Assembly (NCBI GenBank): GCA_011176535.1 | Contig: DUEP01000052.1 | Span: 1-36,894, forward strand | Length of the DNA stretch: 36,894 nt | Direction of reading: 5' to 3' | From: Anaerolineae bacterium | Lineage (GTDB): Bacteria > Chloroflexota > Anaerolineae > Anaerolineales > DRMV01 | Shown here: in pieces, positions 35,372-36,808 of the stretch | How the letters are laid out: the number at the start of each line of letters is the position of its first letter | Position numbering within the stretch: the stretch's first letter is position 1 | Made by a program: the position numbers and the translations under genes | The notes under the pieces: generated by a model | What the model was told of the DNA's origin: nothing | The model's database searches: none | The model's input: only the letters and a program-made list of their open reading frames with translations

Positions 35372-36373
35372 ATGGATGCATCGTACCCCCTGTTTCAAGT
35401 GCTGACCTGGGAAGGCATTCCCTGGGCCCAGGTGGACGAAACGGCCCAGATTTTGCTGGCCGCCCCCCAGGATTGTGTCACCCTCACTTTGCACACCTTG
35501 CCCCTGGCCTCCCAGGGCGAATGGCCGCCCGCCTTCCCCGCCCAAGGCGGCCCGGCGGAGGTCACCCTGCAGGACGGCAGTCTCTGGCTGGTGTGGGCGC
35601 TGGAAGACGGTTCGTTTCTCGTGGTGCCTAAAGCCTACTGGTCGCGGCGGCTGGAAGAAGAACGGGGCCGCGTGCCCAGGTTCATTTCGGTGGTCACCCA
35701 CGAGTTGCGCCTGCCCCTGACCTCCATCAAGGGCTACACCGACCTGCTCCTCAAGGGCCTGGGCGGGGAAGTCTCCCCTCAACAGGCCCAATTCCTGGAA
35801 GTCATTCGCAACAGTGTCCAGCGGATGGTCACCCTGCTCGACCGCCTTTCGGACATGGGCAAACTGGAGTCCGGCCGTCTGCTGGTGAAGCGCATGCCGC
35901 TGTCGGTCAAAGAAGCCCTCGAACCTGTGGTGCTGAAATATCGCCCACTGTGCGAAGCCAAGGGACAAACCTTCCGCTGGCAGGTGCCTGAGGGCCTCCC
36001 CCCGGCCCAGGGCGACCCCCACCGGCTGCCGCAGGTCGTCGAAGCGCTGGTGGACAACGCCCACCGGTACACGCCCCAGGGAGGGCACATCACCCTGGGG
36101 GTACGCGCCGAAGGCCCGGAGATCCGGATTTGGGTAACGGACACGGGGATCGGCATTCGCCCTGAGGATCAGGCCCGCCTCTTCGAACCCTTCTTCCGCT
36201 CCGAAGAGGAAGCGGTGCGCGACCAGCGCGGTTGGGGGCTCTCGCTACATGTGGCCGGCTTGTTGGTTGAGCGCATGGGCGGGCGCATTGAAGTGGAAAC
36301 GGCTCCCGGCCAGGGCAGCACCTTCACCGTGCATCTCCCCCGCGCCCAGGAGCAACTTGACGAAAAACCTTGA
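35372..36373 (+). CDS. Histidine kinase without recognisable sensor domain
   Basis: This 333-residue cytosolic kinase has a ~95-residue N-terminus (TWEGIPWAQVDETAQILLAA in part: IPWAQVDETAQ) that matches no domain I know. The H box is VVTHELRLPLTS with His110, and Leu replaces the usual Thr of HELRTPL. The ATP domain has ALVDNAHRYTPQGG, DTGIGIRPEDQ, FEPFFRSE and RGWGLSLHVAGLLVERMGG, where the G2 box is GWGLSL in place of GxGLGL. It lies in the same probable operon as the GAF/PAS kinase. No response regulator is nearby. The stop codon overlaps the -35 box of the cold-shock promoter. Confidence 0.9.
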   Translation: MDASYPLFQVLTWEGIPWAQVDETAQILLAAPQDCVTLTLHTLPLASQGEWPPAFPAQGGPAEVTLQDGSLWLVWALEDGSFLVVPKAYWSRRLEEERGRVPRFISVVTHELRLPLTSIKGYTDLLLKGLGGEVSPQQAQFLEVIRNSVQRMVTLLDRLSDMGKLESGRLLVKRMPLSVKEALEPVVLKYRPLCEAKGQTFRWQVPEGLPPAQGDPHRLPQVVEALVDNAHRYTPQGGHITLGVRAEGPEIRIWVTDTGIGIRPEDQARLFEPFFRSEEEAVRDQRGWGLSLHVAGLLVERMGGRIEVETAPGQGSTFTVHLPRAQEQLDEKP

Positions 36374-36398
36374 CGCCCCCTCTGGGGCATGATACCCT
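36370..36398 (+). promoter_or_regulatory. Promoter of the cold-shock gene
   Basis: TTGACG (36370-36375), 17 bases, TACCCT (36393-36398), with TGA just before the -10. The octamer TGGGGCAT occurs at 36383-36390 and again at 36401-36408, on either side of the -10. A GCCCC/GGGGC dyad (36375-36388) lies in the spacer. Confidence 0.5.
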
Positions 36399-36408
36399 TG
36401 TGGGGCAT

Positions 36409-36426
36409 CGTTGACACCAGTCAACG
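36409..36426 (+). promoter_or_regulatory. Perfect dyad at the start of the cold-shock leader
   Basis: CGTTGAC-ACCA-GTCAACG, 7-bp arms and a 4-base loop, lies just after the predicted transcription start. It may be an operator or the 5' hairpin of the mRNA. Confidence 0.5.
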
Positions 36427-36431
36427 CAAAG

Positions 36432-36496
36432 TAAGGGCAAGCCGAACCCTCTCAGTGGGTGGCAAGCGTCGCCCGTTGAGAGGGTTCGGTCCCTTA
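36432..36496 (+). promoter_or_regulatory. Long hairpin in the cold-shock mRNA leader
   Basis: The outer stem TAAGGG/CCCTTA (36432-36437 with 36491-36496) is followed by a bulge and a perfect 13-bp stem CCGAACCCTCTCA (36442-36454)/TGAGAGGGTTCGG (36477-36489). The stem continues inward with G-U and G-C pairs to a 4-base loop AAGC near 36464. It ends 23 bases before the ribosome site. No T-run follows, so it is not a terminator. A thermosensing or RNA-stability element is plausible. Confidence 0.7.
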
Positions 36497-36535
36497 AAAA
36501 CCCAAGTTCACTTTTTTAGAAGGAGTAAGTTGAGC

Positions 36536-36748
36536 ATGTCTGAGCGTTATGTAGGTACCGTCAAATGGTTCAATGCCACCAAGGGCTTCGGCTTCATCGG
36601 CCGCGAGGATGGCGAGGATGTTTTCGTTCACTTTTCGGCCATTCAGATGGACGGCTACCGCAGCCTGGAAGAGGGCCAGCGGGTCGAGTTCTCCATCGAA
36701 CAGGGTCCCAAGGGCTTGCAGGCCGCCAATGTGGTGGTGATCGGGTAG
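36536..36748 (+). CDS. cspA: Cold-shock protein (CspA family)
   Basis: This 70-residue OB-fold RNA/DNA chaperone carries the full signature: [16 protein letters not shown] (RNP1, KGFGFI), then DVFVHFSAI (RNP2) and [20 protein letters not shown]. It melts mRNA structure during cold or growth changes. The ATG at 36536 has AAGGAG ten bases upstream. A longer in-frame start would include the leader hairpin and is rejected. It has its own promoter, a ~130-base structured leader like those of other csp genes, and a strong terminator. Confidence 0.96.
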
Positions 36749-36778: not shown

Positions 36779-36808
36779 AAAAGCCGCTCCTCACGGAGCG
36801 GCTTTTTT
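36779..36808 (+). terminator. Rho-independent terminator of cspA
   Basis: A perfect stem AAAAGCCGCTCC/GGAGCGGCTTTT has loop TCAC and ends in six T. It starts 30 bases after the stop codon. Confidence 0.92.

Follow-up and report, generated by a model that had tools for sequence, protein, structure and literature searches.

The csp gene near the end of the window, as we call the whole 36,894-nt stretch of Anaerolineae DNA analyzed here, is preceded by a near-perfect hairpin of 28 base pairs (P2). Its placement and its folding as sense-strand RNA, unlike its sequence, recur in related species; this suggests that it serves to protect or process the mRNA, and not as a thermometer that melts. The region is best explained as the ~131-nt 5' leader of a monocistronic csp mRNA, with a putative transcription start placed by its spacing from the -10 element (Table 1). 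The gene is the last complete one in the window; the upstream gene encodes a histidine kinase and ends in a stop codon (36371-36373) that the -35 element overlaps. The extended -10 pattern has a single match in the entire window (36.9 kb, both strands; 0.02 expected), and the promoter pattern is also found 5' of most of the Anaerolineales csp genes that were fetched. A generic sigma-70 scan, which applies a stricter hexamer rule, did not have the promoter among its predictions.

Table 1 Features of the csp locus, with coordinates in the window.
Feature	Position	Strand	Basis
Putative promoter, TTGACG-N17-TACCCT, extended -10 (TGA)	36370-36398	+	Clade pattern match
Predicted transcription start (~36404-36406), 5' end GCAUCG	36405-36408	+	Spacing from -10; alignment A5
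Small hairpin P1, 7 bp, CGUUGAC-ACCA-GUCAACG, loop ACCA	36409-36426	+	Sequence, fold
Long hairpin P2, 28 bp, 5 G.U pairs, loop AAGC	36433-36495	+	Fold, shuffles
U6 run, between hairpin and Shine-Dalgarno	36512-36517	+	Sequence; same place in most close relatives
Shine-Dalgarno AAGGAG	36520-36525	+	Sequence
csp, 70-aa cold-shock domain protein	36536-36748	+	Pfam CSD, 108 bits
Intrinsic terminator of csp, AAAGCCGCTCC-TCAC-GGAGCGGCTTT then T-run	36780-36808	+	Sequence; aligns to the terminator of the Rfam cspA model

Folding and strand bias of the leader

P2 spans 63 nt, with a 4-nt apical loop and a 3-nt bulge (CAA). Its predicted energy of -48.6 kcal/mol (z-score -9.9; no shuffle equally good) was the lowest of 7,366 segments of 68 nt when both strands of the window were scanned. 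The original prediction of a long structured csp leader, with a hairpin of ~28 bp and a smaller perfect dyad between the predicted promoter and the ribosome site, was thus borne out for both hairpins. P1 begins at about +5 and P2 about 28 nt from the predicted +1. The 28-bp stem itself is known from this genome alone, the one genome that represents the genus. The pentamer AAGCG (36464-36468), in or beside the apical loop of P2, also occurs in or beside the apical loops of seven type-A hairpins (L014, L015, L019, L022, L030, L038 and L128), the stems of which are otherwise unrelated.

All five non-Watson-Crick pairs of P2 are G.U on the sense strand and would be A.C on the antisense strand, for which the predicted energy of the hairpin is -35.2 kcal/mol. 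Across the leader stretch, the sense minus antisense difference was -11.3 kcal/mol, compared with +1.6 ± 3.3 kcal/mol in shuffles (0 of 300 matched it). The sense strand also folded better in 34 of 41 Anaerolineales csp leaders, with a mean bias of -2.76 kcal/mol against 0.08 ± 0.42 in shuffles, although the P value of this bias is to be taken loosely because the leaders, nearly all of which have the same promoter, are not independent. A search of the genome for a second copy of the hairpin found none. The strand bias and the single copy together argue for an RNA-level element of the sense transcript, so that P2 would act as part of the csp mRNA and not as a DNA palindrome.

Csp leaders of related genomes

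A set of 151 genomes from this order, together with named records, supplied the csp homologues. We define a type-A leader as the promoter TTGACN-(16-18)-TANNNT with an extended -10 TG, followed by a hairpin near +1, a U-run, a Shine-Dalgarno (SD) sequence and csp; the leader in the window is of this type. The closest homologues have this promoter in common and a short leader, usually with one hairpin and an SD sequence, and in many of them a U-run stands between the two. The main hairpin mostly starts between +2 and +9 and mostly ends 25-31 nt before the AUG. These hairpins mostly have 12-18 pairs, and their folds, taken one sequence at a time, score modestly (median z -1.85, with z below -1.64 in 22 of 41). 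By comparison, the hairpin in the window is longer and lies ~10 nt further from the AUG.

The stem sequences are unrelated between genera (GUGCCCG..CGGGCAU, GUCCCG..CGGGAU, GCGCCGG..CCGGCGC and GUCGUUUCU..AGAAGCGAC). Because MAFFT failed to align them, tests of geometry and strand bias were used. As judged from these sequences, hairpin position and sense-RNA folding are common to related species and sequence turnover is almost complete; the value of the sense-strand test is that it points to a hairpin that persists as RNA despite the changes in its sequence. A literature search found no paper on csp leaders of Chloroflexota, the phylum to which our analysis extends the long-hairpin csp leaders.

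In two sister genera (g4 and g5; L006-L012 and L118-L125), the 5' end of the mRNA is conserved in sequence outside the stems (GCAUCGGAGGC..GCC-AAAGAGCA..ACCC), and this conserved end could be a candidate binding site. A small hairpin at the same place as P1 keeps its pairing there through two double-sided compensatory changes (alignment A5; the structure of helix 3 of this alignment is from RNAalifold). The GCAUCG of the predicted 5' end is identical in the leaders of both genera. Compared by eye with these leaders, the window retains GCAUCG, a hairpin of new sequence, CAAAG..GGCAAG and ACCCAAG, and has a main hairpin roughly double the length of theirs. Two further sister genera (g2 and g3), represented by nine genomes of which two are 94% complete, gave no csp homologue at E ≤ 0.001; they may have lost all their cold-shock proteins. 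The second csp gene of the genome that contains the window (C104; L002:1369-1500) has the same promoter type and another leader (GGCCAGCA..UGCUGGCC).

Function of the long hairpin

The locus resembles the E. coli type of csp leader (Rfam RF01766, cspA) in having a long structured leader followed by csp and a terminator. Unlike that family, however, its leader does not fit the model: the match scored 88 bits with the leader and 96.2 bits for the coding region and terminator alone, and the leader by itself (36340-36540) had no cspA match in Rfam up to E = 10. Membership in the Rfam family, suggested by the above-threshold match, was therefore rejected, since the score comes from the coding region. 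The leader is indeed built differently from the proteobacterial one, as originally predicted, and its single long stem sets it apart in that comparison; as a design, the long stem has a precedent. In Staphylococcus aureus, the cspA leader (113 nt) contains a near-perfect helix of 32 bp, which RNase III cuts; cleavage leaves a short 5' hairpin, raises the half-life from <2.5 to >16 min and improves 30S binding (Lioliou et al, 2012, PMC3386247). The two leaders are alike in length (113 against ~131 nt), in lying upstream of the SD sequence of a csp gene and in carrying a near-perfect helix of more than 20 bp. An RNase III gene is also encoded in the genome studied here (C8:37401-38060; TIGR02191, 263 bits, over the cut-off), for which amino-acid composition gives a rough estimate of the growth optimum of ~47 °C. 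They differ in phylum, in the extra small 5' hairpin of the window and in the absence of any demonstrated sequence relation; cleavage is established for S. aureus cspA, whereas the helix and the RNase III gene of the present system are known from sequence.

By analogy, P2 may set mRNA stability and ribosome access through RNase III processing and 5' protection, a reading that we favor tentatively and rate at somewhat less than an even chance. The 28-bp near-perfect duplex would be a natural RNase III substrate. Its cleavage, or the mere presence of a hairpin near the 5' end, would yield a 5'-structured, decay-resistant csp mRNA with the U-rich ribosome-binding site left free, as in S. aureus cspA. 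The structure, its placement between promoter and SD sequence, the sense-strand constraint, the order-wide architecture and the RNase III gene support this reading; the transcription start, the cleavage and the consequences for stability and translation are what we infer. Most relatives have hairpins of 12-18 pairs, a modest length for an RNase III substrate; cleavage could thus be confined to this species, or not happen at all. If processing by RNase III is real, distant phyla would have arrived at one and the same solution.

Its main rival is plain 5' protection, in which the hairpin, without RNase III, insulates the mRNA by blocking 5'-dependent decay and keeps the U-rich ribosome-binding site single-stranded, any length beyond ~12 bp being incidental. 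The short hairpins of the relatives, of unrelated sequence and constantly right after +1 at their fixed distance from the AUG, fit it well. It leaves the 28 near-perfect pairs of this species unexplained, however, and although P1 is suitably close to +1, P2 is not. We consider plain protection possible, if on the unlikely side; the last steps of both readings are reasoned by inference. Protection also proved the better half of the original proposal that the hairpin could protect the mRNA or switch with temperature, S. aureus cspA being the close precedent.

A more far-reaching reading, in which hairpin, U-run and SD sequence would form a Csp-controlled switch with free sequence and a geometry fixed across the order, strikes us as unlikely. 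The level of Csp, or RNase III, would then decide between a protected, translated csp mRNA and a decaying one, and the system would have evolved independently of those of Staphylococcus and the enterobacteria. A hairpin that is free in sequence and fixed in position makes a simple prediction for reporter tests.

The temperature half of the original proposal found no support for the long stem. RNA thermoswitches are known for the csp genes Listeria cspA and S. aureus cspB and cspC, and in Listeria cspA disruption of a hairpin exposes the SD sequence (PMC8155936). The present leader is likewise a csp 5' UTR with hairpins, but its strong stem excludes both SD sequence and AUG and stays paired in predicted structures from 10 to 75 °C; for these reasons, the long stem is unlikely to be a melting thermometer. 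A temperature-responsive leader could instead use the long hairpin as a scaffold, with the weak pairing of the U-run and flanks to the SD region (36505-36535) shifted by temperature or by Csp. Predicted pairing of the SD sequence does fall gradually (0.93 at 10 °C, 0.29 at 75 °C), and many relatives have a U-run before the SD sequence and an A-rich stretch after it. Simple melting would nevertheless act in the wrong direction for cold induction, the long stem does not change with temperature, and the pairing, at -5.7 kcal/mol (37 °C, ribosome-binding region alone), is of the weak kind expected of any combination of U-rich and SD sequences. The gradual fall is, in these predictions, the generic behavior of such a pair, and we regard a temperature response as quite unlikely.

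Csp proteins prefer U-rich single strands. Autoregulation, in which Csp would bind the U6 run beside the SD sequence while the hairpin keeps the site exposed, could draw on this preference and on the U-run, which many type-A relatives have in a matching position, but a U-rich stretch before an SD sequence may equally be a plain site for the ribosome or S1, and we deem this reading improbable. Still less probable is a transcription attenuator, in which Csp would open an intrinsic terminator made of hairpin and U-run. In many relatives, the hairpin and the U-run after it are 2-4 nt apart, against 15-16 nt in the window. Because the U-run is here not adjacent to the stem and a terminator scan found no sense-strand terminator at the hairpin, the attenuator was rejected for the window, a rejection that does not extend to the relatives, although one of them (L022) was also negative in the scan. 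A DNA-level palindrome with no RNA role, be it a protein site or a mobile-element remnant, is barely credible: a near-perfect inverted repeat in one genome only would suit it, but every mismatch is a G.U pair, and on the sense strand alone, the relatives have hairpins at the homologous place, and the lack of a second copy in the genome led us to reject a mobile-element or repeat origin.

A second type of csp leader in the order

Other csp paralogues of the order have a leader of ~115 nt, which we call type B (e.g., L159, L171, L182, L150 and L166; model R1). It consists of a long articulated hairpin, within which a terminator-like hairpin and U-run are embedded, followed by a hairpin around the SD sequence. 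In an alignment of 15 sequences, 85% of cells pair, and double-sided changes occur in 24 cells, against 9.3 in shuffles and far fewer in slid controls. Of 301 genomes of the order, 131 contained a match to the type-B covariance model, and the genome that contains the window had none; outside the order, a sample of the phylum gave only two weak partial matches. All 20 further matches that were checked are followed by csp (a few are from genomes that also gave fetched sequences). When ten type-B loci were compared with Rfam, no family appeared besides the cspA model, which was driven by csp. From its sequence, type B looks like an undescribed csp leader RNA that is absent from Rfam, and it is possibly a csp attenuator. 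A second version of type B with the same overall plan (UGCAUGCAAGUUCUGUCUGGAAGUCG...CGACCGCCGGGAACGAGACAAGC) is present at L146, L148, L152, L154, L167, L181, L184 and L138 (alignment A7).
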